NCBI GenBank assembly: GCA_905182145.1
Contig: CAJJAN010000016.1
Coordinates: 1-39,054, forward strand
DNA from: an uncultured Pelagibacteraceae bacterium
GTDB lineage: Bacteria > Pseudomonadota > Alphaproteobacteria > Pelagibacterales > AG-422-B15
Direction of reading: 5' to 3'
DNA length: 39,054 bases
In this document: in pieces, positions 32,173-39,054 of the stretch
Layout of the letters: each line of letters begins with the position of its first letter
How positions within the stretch are numbered: position 1 is the first letter of the stretch
Notes under the pieces: generated by a model
Seen by the model: the letters and a program-made list of their open reading frames with translations, nothing else
Told to the model about the DNA's origin: nothing
Database searches by the model: none
Program-made: the position numbers and the translations under genes

Positions 32173-33333
32173 ATGTCTGCATCAAACATTGATCCAGTAA
32201 AACTTACTCAATCACTAATCTCATGCCCTAGTGTTACACCTACTGATGCCGGTGTATTACAAACACTGCAAGACCAGTTAGAAGAAATTGGCTTCAGGTG
32301 TACTCGAATGCCTTTTGAAGAAACCGGTACTGAAGCGGTTGATAATTTATTTGCTAGCTATGGTGAAGGCGCACCTCATTTATGTTTTGGTGGTCATACT
32401 GACGTTGTTCCTGTTGGTAATAGCGCTTCTTGGACCAATGATCCATTTGATGCTGTAATTAAAGATGGTAATTTATATGGTCGTGGCACCGCAGATATGA
32501 AGTCTGCTATTGCCGCATTTACTGCGGCTGCAAGTAATTTTATTAAAACTGGAGACTTCAAGGGTACTATAAGTTTGTTAATTACTAATGATGAAGAAGG
32601 CCCAGCAATAAATGGTACTCAAAAAGTTTTAGAGGCTATTACTAAAAATGGTGAAAAGATTGACTCGTGCATTGTTGGTGAACCTACATGCCCTGCTCAA
32701 CTAGGTGAAATGATCAAAATTGGTCGCCGTGGTAGTCTTACAACTAATATTTCAATCATTGGAATTCAAGGTCATGTAGCTTATCCGCAATGGACTTTAA
32801 ATCCCATTGATGCACTAACAAAAGTATTAAGTAAAATCGTAGACCTAAAATTAGATGAAGGTACTGAAGATTTTCCACCAACAAATATTGAGATTGTAAA
32901 AATTGATGCTGATAATACGGCTGATAATGTGGTGCCTCATTCGGCCACAGCTCAAATAAATATTCGTTATAACATTTTGCAAACAGAAGATGGTCTAATG
33001 AAGTTGCTTCAAGAGATAACTGACCAAGAACTATTAAATACTGAATATAAATCTACTATTGAGTTTAGAAACTCAGCTCAACCATTTTTGACTAAAGAAA
33101 GTGACTTTACCAAAAAGATTAAAGAAGCGGTTGATTTGGTCACTGGTTTAAATTCAGAATTTAGTACAACTGGTGGTACGAGTGATGCAAGATTTTTTAA
33201 AGATTATTGTGAAGTTGCAGAATTTGGTTTAGTTGGCTCTACAGCACATCAAGTTGATGAACATGTAGCAGTTAAAGATATTGAGAACTTGGCAAAAATT
33301 TATGAAGAAATTATTAAAAAGTATTTTAATTAA
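32173..33333 (+). CDS. dapE: Succinyl-diaminopimelate desuccinylase
   Basis: A 386-residue M20 metallopeptidase-family enzyme that removes succinate from N-succinyl-LL-diaminopimelate. The metal ligands and catalytic residues are in FGGHTDVVPVG (about 73-83), GRGTADMKSAIAAF, TNDEEGPAINGT, GEPTCPAQLG and the dimerisation-domain GRRGSLTTN; GGTSDARF is near residue 338. It follows dapD in the same operon. Its stop overlaps the DUF3299 stop by four bases (33330-33333). Confidence 0.95.
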   Translation: MSASNIDPVKLTQSLISCPSVTPTDAGVLQTLQDQLEEIGFRCTRMPFEETGTEAVDNLFASYGEGAPHLCFGGHTDVVPVGNSASWTNDPFDAVIKDGNLYGRGTADMKSAIAAFTAAASNFIKTGDFKGTISLLITNDEEGPAINGTQKVLEAITKNGEKIDSCIVGEPTCPAQLGEMIKIGRRGSLTTNISIIGIQGHVAYPQWTLNPIDALTKVLSKIVDLKLDEGTEDFPPTNIEIVKIDADNTADNVVPHSATAQINIRYNILQTEDGLMKLLQEITDQELLNTEYKSTIEFRNSAQPFLTKESDFTKKIKEAVDLVTGLNSEFSTTGGTSDARFFKDYCEVAEFGLVGSTAHQVDEHVAVKDIENLAKIYEEIIKKYFN

Positions 33334-33785
33334 TAATCATAAAATTCAATTTTATCTGCACTAATTTCATAGCCAGTTTCCGCCCATTCATTTGTTTGAA
33401 TTTTAACAATTATTTCTCCGGTAACCCATACAGGCTCCCATAAAGTCATTGTATCCCAAGGCTTGTCTGTTGTGACATAAACTAGCTGGTTAGGTGGCGG
33501 TGGTGGCACATGAATGCATGCACCAACATACGGCACCAACATAAATTCAGTTACGCCAGTGCCTGAATAATCTAATGGAACTATGTACCCAGGTATTTTA
33601 ACTATTTTGCCATCTAACTTTTTATTAAATTTAACTTCACCTGATGTGAAAATAGCAGTCCAGGGTATGAGGTCATGCCATCCTATTTCATTTTTATCTA
33701 TAGAATAAGAATTTGAATTAATTAAGATTAGTAGTGAAAAACTAAATGTTAATTTTTTTATTAAATTAAAAAATCTATGTATCAT
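33330..33785 (-). CDS. DUF3299 family exported protein
   Basis: A 151-residue protein with a hydrophobic N-terminal signal (LTFSFSLLILINSNSYS). The DUF3299 signature is clear: IPGYIVPLDYSG, then TEFMLVPYVGACIHVPPPPPNQ, quoted as VPYVGACIHVPPPPPNQ, with Cys and His side by side. The family has no established biochemical role; it is often found by ABC-type metal or lipid systems. It is the last gene of the zrg-like operon, starting by a 4-bp ATGA overlap with the permease. In Vibrio the Zn-regulated zrgABCDE locus is a remembered parallel; I cannot say which letter this protein would be. Confidence 0.85.
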   Translation of the reverse strand: MIHRFFNLIKKLTFSFSLLILINSNSYSIDKNEIGWHDLIPWTAIFTSGEVKFNKKLDGKIVKIPGYIVPLDYSGTGVTEFMLVPYVGACIHVPPPPPNQLVYVTTDKPWDTMTLWEPVWVTGEIIVKIQTNEWAETGYEISADKIEFYDY

Positions 33786-35032
33786 ATTTTTATCGTCATA
33801 CCATCATTTATTGAAAACCAATATGCTCTTATTGCTGGTATTAAGCTCACTAGCATTGCAGATAATATAAATAATATAAAAATATAAATATCCTTTAAAG
33901 ACAACATCTCAATTGTTACTAATATCCCATAAGTACTATCAATCCATGGTTGCAGTATATATAGCAAGATAAATAGTAGAAAAGTACTCACCATAACGCT
34001 TAAACTAGAAATAATAAATGCTTCGAGCATAAGTAATCCTATTACTATTTTAGGTGATGCACCCATTGCTCTCCAAATCGCCATTTCACGTCTTCTTTCA
34101 CTTAAACTAGAAAAAATAATTGCAGCCATTCCAATTAAAGTTGTAAATATAACTACCATAGATATTCCTAATAATAAGTTTTCAACAATACTTACAATTC
34201 TCCATAATTCTTGTAAAGCAACCCCAGGTAAGATTGAACTTAATGCCTCTTCAGAGTATTCATTAATCCATCGTTGAAGTTGAAAAATCTGTAATTTTGA
34301 ATTTACCCCTATCAACACAGCAGTTATATTTGAAGGTGCTAAATCCATTCTTCGAATTTGTTCTACAGGGGTCTCTTGTCCAGGGATTTTTGCACCACTT
34401 GACCAATCTATATGAATAGCTTCGATTGCTTCTAAGCTAACAATGATTGTATTATCTACTGGCGTTCCTGTTTTAGCAAGTATACCCGACACTTTAAAAG
34501 GCTGATCATCATGTTCTGTAAAGGACCTTAAGCCATGAGATACAATTATAGGAGTATTAATATTGTATCCTAATTTTTCTGCGACACCGGAACCTATAAC
34601 AACATCATATAGATCTGAAAAATATTTACCATTTTCGATTTTTAAAGATTGATCTCCTCTGTATTTATATCTTTTAAAAAAATCTTCATTTGTACCCATA
34701 ACTCTAAATTCTTTATGACTATCACCAAGAGAAATTGGCACTGACCAATCAACCTCATCTCTTTTGATAATATCTTCATAGCTTTCCCAAGTTATATTGT
34801 TCGTTGCATTTCCAATTCTAAATACAGAATATAGAAGAAGTTGTACTGATCCAGTTCTTGAACCTACAATTAAATCAGTTTGTGATATTGTATTTGTAAA
34901 ACTTGTATAAGCAGAAGCTCTTAATTTTTCAACACTTAGATAAAGCATTAAAGATAATGAAATTGCAAAAACAGTCATGCTTACGGTTAGAAGTCTTGCA
35001 TAAAGTGAACTGATTGTTAATTTTAATAACAC
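33782..35032 (-). CDS. FtsX/MacB-type ABC transporter permease (Zrg-like)
   Basis: A 416-residue permease. An N-terminal helix follows SLYARLLTVSMTVFAISL, a large extracytoplasmic domain spans about residues 40-270, and three helices close the protein, with the cytoplasmic motif SSLSERRREMAIWRAMGASP between the second and third (coupling region). This is the FtsX/LolCE/MacB topology. It begins with a GTG codon at 35032, 2 bp after the ATPase stop, and has a GAGAGG site just upstream. It is linked to the DUF2796 gene, so zinc-related transport or export across the envelope is inferred; direct transport is not shown. Confidence 0.87.
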   Translation of the reverse strand: MLLKLTISSLYARLLTVSMTVFAISLSLMLYLSVEKLRASAYTSFTNTISQTDLIVGSRTGSVQLLLYSVFRIGNATNNITWESYEDIIKRDEVDWSVPISLGDSHKEFRVMGTNEDFFKRYKYRGDQSLKIENGKYFSDLYDVVIGSGVAEKLGYNINTPIIVSHGLRSFTEHDDQPFKVSGILAKTGTPVDNTIIVSLEAIEAIHIDWSSGAKIPGQETPVEQIRRMDLAPSNITAVLIGVNSKLQIFQLQRWINEYSEEALSSILPGVALQELWRIVSIVENLLLGISMVVIFTTLIGMAAIIFSSLSERRREMAIWRAMGASPKIVIGLLMLEAFIISSLSVMVSTFLLFILLYILQPWIDSTYGILVTIEMLSLKDIYIFILFILSAMLVSLIPAIRAYWFSINDGMTIKI

Positions 35033-35034
35033 GC

Positions 35035-35721
35035 CTAATCCTCTCTAACTAAAATATCATTAATATCAATAATACGATCAAAGTAATTGGATAGAGATCT
35101 ATCATGGGAAACCATTAACAAGGTTGATTTATTCTCTTCGATTTGCTTAAACATTAGATCCAAGAAATTTTTTTGAGTATCCGTATCTAATGCTGATGTC
35201 GGTTCGTCGGCAATAATCAGTGAAGGGTTACCTATTAAAGCTCTTGCTACAGCAACTCTCTGTTGTTGTCCGACACTTAGTTTACTTGCCTGTACATCTT
35301 TAATAGAGTCAGGTAGTCGTAGTGACTTACAGATACTAATTGCCACATCTCTTTGGTTTAATACTCTACTGGCTCTTATCTTAGAAAAATACAAAGGAAG
35401 GATAATATTATCTATAACACTAGCGTACGGCAGCAAATTAAATTGTTGAAAGATTATGCCTATATTATCAGATCGATATTGGTCTCTTTTATTTGCAGTT
35501 AAATTATTAGTTTTTTGTTCATTTAAATAAATATCTCCTGATATAGGACTTAGAAAACCACATATAAGTGAGAGTAAAGTAGTTTTACCAGAGCCACTTT
35601 CTCCCAGTAACAGTACCTTTTCACCCTTACCAATATTTAATTTTGGTATATGAAGCTTAAAATCAGATTTTTTAGACCAATAGAATCTTACGGAATCTAG
35701 GCAAATAGTTTCTTCATTCAA
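35035..35721 (-). CDS. ABC transporter ATP-binding protein (LolD/MacB type, Zrg-like)
   Basis: I start this gene at the TTG at 35721 (codon 18 of the track ORF) instead of 35772. It then begins 1 bp after the zrgA-like stop rather than overlapping it by 50 bp, and it has a strong site (GAAGGAAAG) in front. The 228 residues carry Walker A in LLGESGSGKTTLLS, Walker B in LIIADEPTSALD and the H-loop in VSHDRS. The signature motif is LSVGQQQR, the variant with valine instead of the second glycine. It powers the FtsX-type permease encoded directly downstream. Confidence 0.88.
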   Translation of the reverse strand: MNEETICLDSVRFYWSKKSDFKLHIPKLNIGKGEKVLLLGESGSGKTTLLSLICGFLSPISGDIYLNEQKTNNLTANKRDQYRSDNIGIIFQQFNLLPYASVIDNIILPLYFSKIRASRVLNQRDVAISICKSLRLPDSIKDVQASKLSVGQQQRVAVARALIGNPSLIIADEPTSALDTDTQKNFLDLMFKQIEENKSTLLMVSHDRSLSNYFDRIIDINDILVRED

Positions 35722-35722
35722 A

Positions 35723-36364
35723 TTAAATCTTTCCTTCAATATTAATGACAGGTTTATCTGCTTCAACCTCAAAACTAGTTGAACCCAGCTCCGAGATAAA
35801 TTGTACTTCTAACTCACCAGAATTTGGGAATGTCATAAAGTAAGAAAATTCTACATTATTAATTAATTTAATACTACCACATTCAAATGAGTACTTTGCA
35901 TAGAACTCGTTATGGATCTCTACTTGATTTTTGTCGTGTTCGTCATGTTCGTCTTTATGTTCGTCATGTTCGTCATGTTCGTCGTGTTCGTCGTGTTCGT
36001 CGTGTTCGTCGTGTTCGTCGTGTTCGTCGTGTTCGTCGTGTTCGTCTTCATTATTAATTTTTACTTCAAGAGATGCAAGATTACATTGACCATCGGCTGG
36101 TATACTAAAAATATTTTTATAGTCTTCAAATTTATTAAGTGCTTTATTTACTAGCTCTATATCTTCATCACTTTTTGCTTCATATTCAAAGCCAACAATA
36201 TCAGCACCTGGTAACATAAATTCAAAATCAATGATGTTTTTATCAATGGCTATATTAAGCTCTCCAACACCATGTTCGTGCTTATCAACTTGTCTTGTTT
36301 CCTCCGCTAAGGCAACTGTTACCAAAGCTGATAATAATAGTGAAAAATAAATATTTTTAGTCAT
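35723..36364 (-). CDS. zrgA: DUF2796/ZrgA-like periplasmic zinc-binding protein
   Basis: I use the ATG at 36364, with a good AGGAG site 5 bases upstream; the track's 36367 is a TTG. The 213 residues start with a signal peptide (cleavage likely after VTVALA). The mature N-terminus matches DUF2796: KHEHGVGELNIAID and FEFMLPGADIVGFEYEA. A strongly charged tract, DEH repeated about ten times, then K, then two more, occupies about residues 105-145. A second DUF2796 part follows (KYSFECGSIKLINNVEF). It probably captures Zn2+ in the periplasm for the adjacent ABC system. A Zur-like box lies 63 bases upstream. Confidence 0.88.
   Translation of the reverse strand: MTKNIYFSLLLSALVTVALAEETRQVDKHEHGVGELNIAIDKNIIDFEFMLPGADIVGFEYEAKSDEDIELVNKALNKFEDYKNIFSIPADGQCNLASLEVKINNEDEHDEHDEHDEHDEHDEHDEHDEHDEHDEHKDEHDEHDKNQVEIHNEFYAKYSFECGSIKLINNVEFSYFMTFPNSGELEVQFISELGSTSFEVEADKPVINIEGKI
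35936..36046 (-). repeat. 9-bp tandem repeat encoding Asp-Glu-His
   Basis: Twelve 9-bp units (plus strand gtgttcgtc, with some atgttcgtc variants) make two blocks of two and ten, separated by one ttt triplet. On the coding strand the unit is GAC-GAA-CAC. The unit is in frame, so slippage changes the number of His residues without a frameshift. The GAC and CAC codons are unusual for such an AT-rich genome, pointing to local amplification. Confidence 0.95.
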
Positions 36365-36427
36365 CAAGTCTCCTGTGAATTTTAAGTATTATTTTTAGGG
36401 GAAAATTTCAAAAGTGTCTATAGAATT

Positions 36428-36442
36428 TGTTACTTTATAACA
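36428..36442. promoter_or_regulatory. Zur-like operator upstream of zrgA-like gene
   Basis: TGTTACTTTATAACA matches the palindrome found between znuC and znuA (TGTTATAATATAACA) at 12 of 15 positions and keeps both TGTTA and TATAACA arms. It is 63 bases before the zrgA-like ATG. On the minus strand TTGATT (36464-36459) and TATAAA (36439-36434) form a possible promoter with a 19-bp spacer, so the box would cover its -10 element and block transcription when zinc is plentiful. Confidence 0.65.
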
Positions 36443-36516: not shown

Positions 36517-36918
36517 TTAGTTTTTTTTACAAGAGTTACAGGTGCCAAAAAATTCTAAATTATACCCATCAAATTTAGCTCCACCTGAGTCTTTAAATTC
36601 AGATAAATAATTAAAAAGTTTTGTATCATTTATTTCTGAAGCACTATCACATTTATAGCAAATTGAAAATATGGTGGCATGTCGTGTTTCACAGTTTAAA
36701 ATCTTACATGCAACGAAAGAATTTTGACTTTCAACTTTATGAACTTTGCCTTTCTCAATCAACTTATCTAAAGCTCTATAAACTTGTGGTGGAGCATTTA
36801 TTCCTTTTTTTTGAACGCTTGAGAGTATTGAATAAGCTTTAACTGGCTTTTTATTTCTTTGAATAAAATCTAATACTATTTGTTGATTTTTTGATAATGA
36901 TTTATTTTTGCTATCCAT
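36517..36918 (-). CDS. zur: Fur-family zinc uptake regulator Zur
   Basis: A 133-residue Fur-family protein. The winged helix ends in INAPPQVYRALDKLIEKG (about 40-57, recognition helix). The structural zinc site is C87-x-x-C90 in FSICYKCDSA with C127-x-x-C130 in FGTCNSCKKN; further regulatory ligands are probably C71, C76 and H80. It represses zinc uptake genes when Zn2+ is bound. It is placed 30 bp after znuB and in the znuCB-zur order, which supports Zur over Fur, Mur or PerR. The Zur-type palindrome at 38516-38530 suggests that it regulates its own operon. Confidence 0.92.
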   Translation of the reverse strand: MDSKNKSLSKNQQIVLDFIQRNKKPVKAYSILSSVQKKGINAPPQVYRALDKLIEKGKVHKVESQNSFVACKILNCETRHATIFSICYKCDSASEINDTKLFNYLSEFKDSGGAKFDGYNLEFFGTCNSCKKN

Positions 36919-36948: not shown

Positions 36949-37740
36949 TTAGTATTTTTTTTGAGTATTTGTTAATGATAAAATAAATAATATCAATGCA
37001 ACAGTAATGATTGTTGGGCCAGATGCAGTATTAATTTCAAACGAAGTATATAGGCCAATAAATACCGACAATAATCCACCTATAATTGAAAAAATTACCA
37101 TTTGTTTTGGATTATTTGATAGATTTCGAGCTGTTGCAGTTGGAATAATTAACATACCCGTGATTAATAATAATCCCACCATTTTGATTGATATTGCAAT
37201 AAGAGCTGCCAATAAAATTGTAAATATTACATTAATTCTATCTGGGTTCATTCCTTCTGCTTCAGCAAGTTCATAATTAACTGTAGCTGCGAATAATGGT
37301 TTCCAAATTAACCATAGAACAAAAAGTATGGTGGCTCCTCCAATCCAAATAATTAGTAAGTCATTAACACTCACTGAAAGGATATCTCCAAACAGAACTC
37401 CCATAATATCAAACCTAATAAATGATAAAAAGCCTAATACAACCAATCCAATAGCAAGAGATGAATGGGATAAAAGTCCCAATAATGAATCACTAGCTAA
37501 ATTGGTGGTATTTTGCAGCTTTAATAAAAGCAATGCTACTAAAGATGAAACAACAAATACTGATAACGAAATATTAATATCAAATGTTACTGATAATATA
37601 ACTCCCAATAAAGCAGAGTGTGCAAGTGTATCTCCGAAAAATGACAGCCTTCTCCAAACAACAAAACAGCCGAGAGGTCCTGTAACTAAAGCAATTCCTA
37701 TACCTGCAATCAAAGCTCTAAATAAAAAATCTTCAAACAT
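36949..37740 (-). CDS. znuB: Zinc ABC transporter permease ZnuB
   Basis: A 263-residue ABC-3 family permease with about eight helices, moving Zn2+ across the inner membrane. The family stretches are RALIAGIGIALVTGPLGCFVVW (as GIALVTGPLGCFVVW) near the start, SFFGDTLAHSALLGV (about 33-47) and GLLLITGMLIIPTATARNL near residue 190. It starts 2 bp after znuC and is followed by zur. A manganese permease of the same family is the alternative, but the zur linkage favours zinc. Confidence 0.93.
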   Translation of the reverse strand: MFEDFLFRALIAGIGIALVTGPLGCFVVWRRLSFFGDTLAHSALLGVILSVTFDINISLSVFVVSSLVALLLLKLQNTTNLASDSLLGLLSHSSLAIGLVVLGFLSFIRFDIMGVLFGDILSVSVNDLLIIWIGGATILFVLWLIWKPLFAATVNYELAEAEGMNPDRINVIFTILLAALIAISIKMVGLLLITGMLIIPTATARNLSNNPKQMVIFSIIGGLLSVFIGLYTSFEINTASGPTIITVALILFILSLTNTQKKY

Positions 37741-37742
37741 AA

Positions 37743-38492
37743 TTATTTTTTTGCTTCTACTATATTTCCATCAGAGGAATGAGTATGATTGTGATCATGC
37801 TCATAAATTGATAATAGTTGTGAGGAGTGTTCTCCAAATAATTCTTTGTAATTTTTATCTTGTGCTACATCAACTGGATTTCCTGAACAGCAAACATGGC
37901 CGTTAAGACAAACTACATGATCTGTTGCTGACATAACTACATGCAAATCATGCGAAATTAAAAGAATGCCACACTTCAGAGTTTCTGAAATTTTTTTTAT
38001 TAATGCATATAATGCTACTTCTCCAGAATAATCGACACCCTGAACTGGCTCATCAAGAACTAAAAGTTCAGGTCTTTTAGCTATAGCTCTAGCTAAAAGA
38101 ACTCTTTGGAACTCCCCACCTGATAGGTCTCTTAGATTATTATTTTTTAAATGTTCAACCCCAGTCAAATTTAAAGCATAAGATATCTCATCCGACTTAA
38201 GATCTTGTGTTAAAACCATAAAATCACTAACTCGAACTGGCAATGTCCAATCGATAATTACTTTTTGTGGCACATAGGAAATTTTTTTAGTAAATTTTTC
38301 TACCGTACCTTCTATGTGTTTATAGAGTCCAAGTGCAATTTTAGCTGTTGTTGTTTTGCCTGATCCATTTGGACCAATTAAAGTTACTATCTTACCTTTA
38401 TGAATTTCTAGATTAACTCCTCTAACAAGCCATTTGTTATCTTTTAGAATACCCGCATTGGATAACTTTACTAAAATATTATTATCTTTCAT
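37743..38492 (-). CDS. znuC: Zinc ABC transporter ATP-binding protein ZnuC
   Basis: I start at the ATG at 38492 (MKDNNILVKLSNAG); the track start at 38531 would lie on the edge of the Zur palindrome and adds an implausible hydrophobic leader. The 249 residues have Walker A in GPNGSGKTTTAKIA, the signature LSGGEFQRVLLARA, Walker B in LLVLDEPVQGVD and the H-loop in ISHDLHV. The C-terminus is rich in His (EHDHNHTHSS), a feature of some ZnuC proteins. It energises ZnuB. It is divergent from znuA, with the operator in the 54-bp gap. Confidence 0.93.
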   Translation of the reverse strand: MKDNNILVKLSNAGILKDNKWLVRGVNLEIHKGKIVTLIGPNGSGKTTTAKIALGLYKHIEGTVEKFTKKISYVPQKVIIDWTLPVRVSDFMVLTQDLKSDEISYALNLTGVEHLKNNNLRDLSGGEFQRVLLARAIAKRPELLVLDEPVQGVDYSGEVALYALIKKISETLKCGILLISHDLHVVMSATDHVVCLNGHVCCSGNPVDVAQDKNYKELFGEHSSQLLSIYEHDHNHTHSSDGNIVEAKK

Positions 38493-38515: not shown

Positions 38516-38530
38516 TGTTATAATATAACA
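38516..38530. promoter_or_regulatory. Zur box between divergent znuC and znuA
   Basis: TGTTATAATATAACA is a palindrome with 7-bp arms around a single central base. It matches the proteobacterial Zur consensus core as I remember it (TGTTATAWTATAACA). It lies 16 bp before the znuA ATG and 23 bp before the chosen znuC ATG and contains TATAAT, so it could block both promoters at once. Confidence 0.9.
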
Positions 38531-38546
38531 CTACTACTTTAAATCT

Positions 38547-39054
38547 ATGAAAGCAATAAAATCTATGAAATTACTACAAAAATTTGGACTATTTTTATCA
38601 ACTTTTTATCTATTATCAATTGTATCACATGCAAATGCTGAAACTAAGGTTGTAGCCTCAATTAAACCACTTCACTCATTAATAAGCTATGTAATGGATG
38701 GAGTTGGAACTCCAGATATAATAATTGATGGTAGTTCTTCCCCTCATACCTTTCAGTTAAAACCATCACATGCTTCGATGTTACAAGAAGCTGACATAGT
38801 TTTTTGGATAGGAGAAGATTTAGAGGCATTTTTAGAATCACCACTTGATTCAATTGCCAAAAATGCAAAGAGAGTCACTTTAATGGACTCGAACGAGATA
38901 AATTTATTAAAATTTAGAGAAAAAAATATATTCGATGAGCATGATGATGAGCATGATGAGCATGATGATGATGAGCATGATGATGATGAGCATGGTGATG
39001 ATGAGCATGGTGATGAGCATGGTGATGATGAGCATGTTGATGAGCATGGTGATG
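38547..39054 (+). CDS. znuA: Zinc ABC transporter substrate-binding protein ZnuA (partial, 3' end off window)
   Basis: This gene is missing from the track because it runs off the right edge. From the ATG at 38547 (MKAIKSMKLLQKFGL) it has a signal peptide ending near SHANAE, then KVVASIKPLHSLISYVMDG with the first ligand His, and SSSPHTFQLKPSHASMLQEAD with the second. A charged loop with DEH-type repeats begins near 38934 and reaches the window end. ZnuA collects Zn2+ in the periplasm and passes it to ZnuB. No Shine-Dalgarno is present at the start. Confidence 0.93.
   Translation, partial: MKAIKSMKLLQKFGLFLSTFYLLSIVSHANAETKVVASIKPLHSLISYVMDGVGTPDIIIDGSSSPHTFQLKPSHASMLQEADIVFWIGEDLEAFLESPLDSIAKNAKRVTLMDSNEINLLKFREKNIFDEHDDEHDEHDDDEHDDDEHGDDEHGDEHGDDEHVDEHGD
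38934..39054 (+). repeat. Imperfect GATGAGCAT repeat encoding the ZnuA His-rich loop
   Basis: Repeated gatgagcat units, interspersed with extra gat and ggt codons, encode (D)DEH and GDEH motifs and run past the window end. The codons are GAT, GAG and CAT, unlike the GAC, GAA and CAC used in the zrgA repeat, so the two tracts arose separately. All insertions are in frame. Confidence 0.9.

Follow-up and report, generated by a model that had tools for sequence, protein, structure and literature searches.

Whether the two zinc-linked transporters encoded side by side at one end of a Pelagibacterales contig obey the same regulator is the question raised by this locus. The window, i.e., the whole stretch of DNA analysed here, comprises 39,054 nucleotides from an uncultured Pelagibacteraceae bacterium and carries, directly behind the znuCB and zur genes, a second operon headed by zrgA and preceded by a sequence that resembles the Zur box of the znu genes. 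In a trace-metal survey of SAR11, znuABC plus a linked Fur-family gene is the sole form of high-affinity zinc uptake described, and it is treated as the one exception to minimised metal uptake (PMC4771312). A search of the available literature found no paper connecting Zrg with SAR11.

Organization of the locus

On the minus strand, the genes follow each other in the order znuC, znuB, zur, the zrg box, zrgA, an ABC ATPase gene, a MacB/FtsX permease gene and a DUF3299 gene, while znuA is transcribed the opposite way from the znu box, divergently from znuCB-zur. The znu box (TGTTATAATATAACA, 38516-38530, assigned to neither strand and recognized by comparison with relatives) is common to the two divergent units. 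These are znuA, encoding the zinc-binding protein (38547-39053, plus strand; domain match, the gene being truncated by the contig end), and, on the minus strand, znuC for the ATPase (37743-38492) and znuB for the permease (36949-37740), both assigned from family matches, together with zur, which encodes a Fur-family zinc repressor of 133 residues (36517-36918, Pfam FUR).

The zrgA gene (35726-36364, minus strand) encodes a periplasmic zinc-binding protein with an HDE-rich loop (DUF2796). Its product matches Pfam ZrgA (PF10986, 2.1e-46) and scores 187.4 bits with NCBIfam NF047873, above the cut-off of 185. In the same operon and on the same strand, zrgA is accompanied by a LolD/MacB-like ABC ATPase (35035-35733; family matches, start codon uncertain), a permease with MacB_PCD and FtsX domains (33782-35032; domain match) and a zrgE-like periplasmic DUF3299 protein (33330-33785; domain match), an order that is kept in relatives. 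The zrgD gene is absent, with no additional gene in 36364-33330. Long His-Asp-Glu repeat stretches occur in both ZrgA (35920-36045) and ZnuA (38938-39054), and in ZrgA the length of the stretch differs among species. At the far end of the operon, zrgE and dapE are convergent, and their stop codons overlap by 4 bases (33330-33333).

The box upstream of zrgA

A preceding sequence-only reading had pointed to a second Zur-like box 63 bases upstream of the zrgA-like gene and identical to the znu box at 12 of 15 positions. Position, identity and distance were all confirmed: the box, TGTTACTTTATAACA, lies at 36428-36442, the zrgA start codon ATG (36364, minus strand) lies 63 bases away, and the box agrees with the znu box at 12/15 positions of the plus strand and at 13/15 of the other strand. 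It contains the GTTA-N5-TAAC motif (GTTACTTTATAAC, 36429-36441), given as the core of proteobacterial Zur sites (PMC4176598).

Within the window, such a match is not unusual. Allowing up to three mismatches to the 15-mer, five matches occur in this AT-rich DNA against 4.6 expected from shuffles, and shuffles of window size are expected to contain on average 0.78 sites that agree with TGTTATANTATAACA at 13/15 positions, N being counted as matching. When just the 152 bases between zur and zrgA are shuffled, an equally good match arises in only 0.7% of cases, and in the 783-kb draft genome TGTTAYNNTATAACA is found in two places only, the znu site and the zrg site. Taken alone, the GTTA-N5-TAAC core has 20 occurrences in the draft genome, whereas its reversed control has more, and the additional core sites were rejected as extra Zur targets. 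The closest-looking one (C3:22878) is located inside a coding sequence, which we read as a hemF-like ORF.

Taken from a single genome, the match is only suggestive; it is the comparison across genomes that makes it solid. Of 97 related genomes, 45 have a ZrgA match, and almost all of these belong to the window's own family of Pelagibacterales (the SAR11 order). Comparison of orthologous upstream regions for a conserved palindrome, proposed as a check in the sequence-only reading, gives the box in 28 of the 29 family zrgA loci with readable upstream sequence, always in identical orientation and 73-80 bases before the start codon. With duplicates removed, 21 of 22 distinct upstream sequences contain it (score 13 or more), where 0.11 would be expected. 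Among other Alphaproteobacteria, the box is present within 150 bp of nine of 16 ZrgA genes (0.05 expected). In the sister genome G001, the nearest relative, the palindrome is perfect (TGTTATAGTATAACA). G008 retains the box even though the gene opposite its zrgA is a divergent zur paralogue rather than zur itself. The arrangement znuA<-box->znuC-znuB-zur-box-zrgA-B-C-E is conserved in relatives, and the znu box precedes znuA/znuC in all examined family loci that contain the znuA-znuC gap. The box upstream of zrgA is thus real, correctly placed and conserved.

The earlier description of the box as degenerate is not borne out. Apart from GTTA-N5-TAAC, the site retains all eight purine/pyrimidine positions of the contact pattern RxxxYRxxRYxxYRxxxY of E. 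coli Zur (PMC4219657), which delimits an 18-bp operator, GTTATAAAGTAACAAATT (36441-36424, minus strand); relatives fit the pattern at 7-8 of 8 positions. The G that breaks the palindrome occupies a contact position requiring only a purine, and the coding-strand form of the box, TGTTATAAAGTAACA (36428-36442, minus strand, conserved in orthologues), is found again in other species. As the contacts are kept and this form recurs, the weaker or conditional binding considered possible on account of degeneracy need not be assumed. In nearly all family members the centre of the zrg box reads A followed by A or G, whereas that of the znu box reads T followed by A; the asymmetry itself is therefore conserved.

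Putative promoter elements and genomes without the second box

Downstream of the box, a hexamer TAGACA or TGGACA (TAGATA in one clade) is conserved at a fixed distance of 21-22 nt from the box start. In the window it forms part of a pair, TAGACA-17-TAAAAA (36392-36420), composed of a putative -35 hexamer TAGACA (36415-36420, minus strand) and, after a 17-nt spacer, a putative -10 hexamer TAAAAA (36392-36397, minus strand) assigned from sequence and comparison. Most relatives have TAAAAT or TAAGAT as the -10, and one clade, read by eye, has TAGATA-17-TAATAT. The pair is also retained in G008 despite its different upstream gene, and is probably the zrgA promoter.

The sequence-only reading had set the box over a possible -10. 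It does contain TGTTATAAA, a fair extended -10-like sequence; however, the hexamer pair conserved between species is situated downstream, so that the downstream promoter is preferred. The zrg box thus probably does not cover a -10 and instead abuts the -35, the 18-bp operator ending 3 bp before the conserved -35-like hexamer. According to a review of Zur proteins, their boxes often overlap the -35 (PMC6103462). At the znu box, the right half corresponds to a -10-like TATAAC for znuA; relatives carry TTGnnA 16-17 nt further upstream.

Three genomes (G004, G007 and G012; loci L047, L043 and L050) lack both the second box and the promoter-like hexamers. Their zrgA begins only about 26-45 nt after zur, and the short gap devoid of the operator-promoter segment suggests that zrg has been fused into the znuCB-zur operon. 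The simplest reading is that in these genomes zrgA is co-transcribed with znuCB-zur under the znu operator, and either way, with or without the second box, zrg would stay tied to zinc control. The same genomes favor the idea that zinc control in the window, too, depends mainly on znuC-znuB-zur transcripts that read through into zrgA, with the second box a minor site or a relic, as does the finding that zur and zrgA share a strand and that a search for a terminator between them revealed none. However, loci with longer gaps keep the box together with TAGACA-17-TAAAAT at fixed spacing, despite diverged surroundings and a different gene context. A relic would decay, so the preservation of the box and promoter pair argues against a relic site, and read-through as the main route of control appears unlikely.

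The adjacent regulator

Of the five NCBIfam families matched by the adjacent regulator, the best is Zur (PRK11639, 70.1 bits). The score is well below the equivalog cut-off of 167, which counts against the Zur-based interpretation; the model is one that we take to be built on enterobacterial Zur. The best PDB matches are 7dh7, a Fur-family regulator, and 4mtd, E. coli Zur. Alignment to both reveals conservation of the Fur fold, of the zinc ligands (presumably H77, C88, H96, C103, C106 and E111 in E. coli Zur numbering) and of the equivalents of E. coli Tyr45 and Arg65. The last two are the base-reading residues of E. coli Zur (PMC4219657). Asp49 and Arg52, which in E. coli Zur form the salt bridge between dimers, are not conserved in the family Zur, where mostly Ser/Asn and Gln/Lys/Asn are found, so that binding may differ from that of the E. 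coli protein.

The box might serve another Fur-family regulator, either Fur or the Zur paralogue present in other Pelagibacterales; in G003, G008, G053 and G057 the gene for such a protein, with about 35% identity, stands beside overlapping copies of the box. In the window locus, however, Zur is the sole adjacent regulator, encoded in the locus that also holds the znu box. Moreover, an inner TATA and Tyr45 distinguish Zur from Fur (PMC4219657), which leaves a different regulator as a distinctly unlikely candidate. Because the box is conserved and the adjacent regulator matches Zur with its key residues, it is very likely that the zrg operon is co-controlled with znuABC. The earlier suggestion to this effect for the DUF2796 operon is likewise supported by the gene order and by published Zur repression of orthologous operons.

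Proposed mode of control

It is highly probable, in our assessment, that the site is a Zur operator repressing zrg and that zrg and ZnuABC are induced jointly when zinc is scarce. Zinc-loaded Zur, the product of the adjoining upstream gene (36918-36517), itself presumably expressed from the znuCB-zur transcript, would bind the 18-bp operator, cover or crowd the -35 region of the zrgA promoter and thereby shut off zrgA and the ATPase, permease and DUF3299 genes. At low zinc, Zur would leave the zrg site and the znuA/znuC site together, and ZnuABC and the Zrg system would be induced at the same time. From the site and its surroundings we infer Zur binding, the promoter position and the repressing sign of control.

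Zur could bind the site and nonetheless activate zrg at plentiful zinc, as it does for efflux genes of Caulobacter and Streptomyces. Such behavior would fit a MacB-type exporter, as the Pseudomonas homologue is described to be (PMC11481552). Zur activates czr of C. crescentus and zitB of S. coelicolor from a box that likewise lies upstream of the -35 (PMC6103462, PMC4176598), and the position of the zrg box relative to its inferred -35 speaks against repression. However, only 3 bp lie between the end of the operator and the -35, so bound Zur should overlap this hexamer, and the zrg homologues reported to date (V. parahaemolyticus, V. cholerae and P. aeruginosa) are repressed by zinc/Zur; activation is accordingly held to be highly improbable. 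A chance palindrome of no function, plausible on the window alone, where the lone 13/15 copy could arise by chance in an AT-rich genome and matches with up to three mismatches are as common as in shuffles, is contradicted by conservation far above expectation inside and outside the family.

A further and rather doubtful proposal concerns the two boxes together. In this SAR11-order family, the eight genes might constitute a zinc-starvation locus with two unlike operators, a symmetric znu box over a -10 and a conserved asymmetric zrg box abutting a -35. Because of its asymmetry, the zrg box might respond at another zinc threshold, its reader being a Zur devoid of the dimer-dimer salt bridge known from E. 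coli.

Comparison with known systems

The zrgABCDE operons of V. cholerae and V. parahaemolyticus are repressed by Zur (PMC9817125; listed in PMC6103462). Like them, the window operon combines ZrgA, an ABC ATPase, a MacB-like permease and a DUF3299 protein, and forms a second zinc system alongside ZnuABC; Zur control is published for Vibrio and predicted from sequence here. It differs in being without zrgD, a gene that V. fischeri and Photobacterium profundum lack as well (PMC9817125), and in its place directly behind znuCB-zur, in a single locus of an alphaproteobacterium of the SAR11 order.

The Zur-regulated genes PA4063-PA4066 of P. aeruginosa have been proposed to encode a MacB-type exporter linked to cobalt-pyochelin (PMC11481552). 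They share with the window operon a ZrgA homologue, a split MacB-type ATPase/permease and a fourth periplasmic protein, and Zur regulation, again published there and predicted here. The difference lies in the reported export tied to cobalt-pyochelin, and we know of no SAR11 genome that makes pyochelin. The literature is divided on the role of Zrg between zinc import (Vibrio, PMC9817125) and MacB-type export (Pseudomonas, PMC11481552).

Compared with the znuA/znuC box of this locus and of SAR11 znu loci (PMC4771312), the zrg box has the box sequence and the regulator gene in common; the znu box, however, is a near-perfect palindrome over a -10, whereas the zrg box has an asymmetric centre and probably abuts the -35. 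The Zur regulon of Caulobacter crescentus, also an alphaproteobacterium, has GTTA-N5-TAAC operators and CobW/COG0523 targets. Uptake there proceeds via TonB receptors and znuGHI, and zrg is not mentioned in the available part of the source (PMC4176598).

The zrg operon of the window is therefore best regarded, with good support, as a further case of the known Zur-zrg control of V. cholerae, V. parahaemolyticus and P. aeruginosa, and not as a new kind of system (PMC9817125, PMC11481552, PMC6103462). The comparative evidence is strong that Zrg, a poorly understood second zinc-linked transporter, belongs to the zinc regulon of streamlined ocean bacteria, and the relatives supply many natural operator variants for the study of how Zur sites are read.

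Further boxes and paralogues in relatives

G006 and G042 have a further copy of the box just past zrgE, where it precedes a CobW/COG0523 GTPase gene that is divergent from a DUF1636 gene. The intergenic copy between these two genes is a perfect Zur-like box (G042, L129:1230-2705; G006, L124:3187-4662) and likely represents a third Zur target in relatives. Zur frequently targets COG0523 genes (PMC6103462), and the box in front of them lends independent support to the Zur-regulon assignment. No COG0523 gene was found in the window's own draft genome, which is 65% complete.

In other Pelagibacterales, the Zur paralogue stands beside two overlapping box copies (L126:6043-6824, L125:5975-6762, L128:5604-5993 and L049:6157-6915). 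Its neighbor in G053, G003 and G008 is a small membrane protein whose tail, KSxHHIVVGDHED, is conserved and which may act as a zinc-related transporter or accessory protein.
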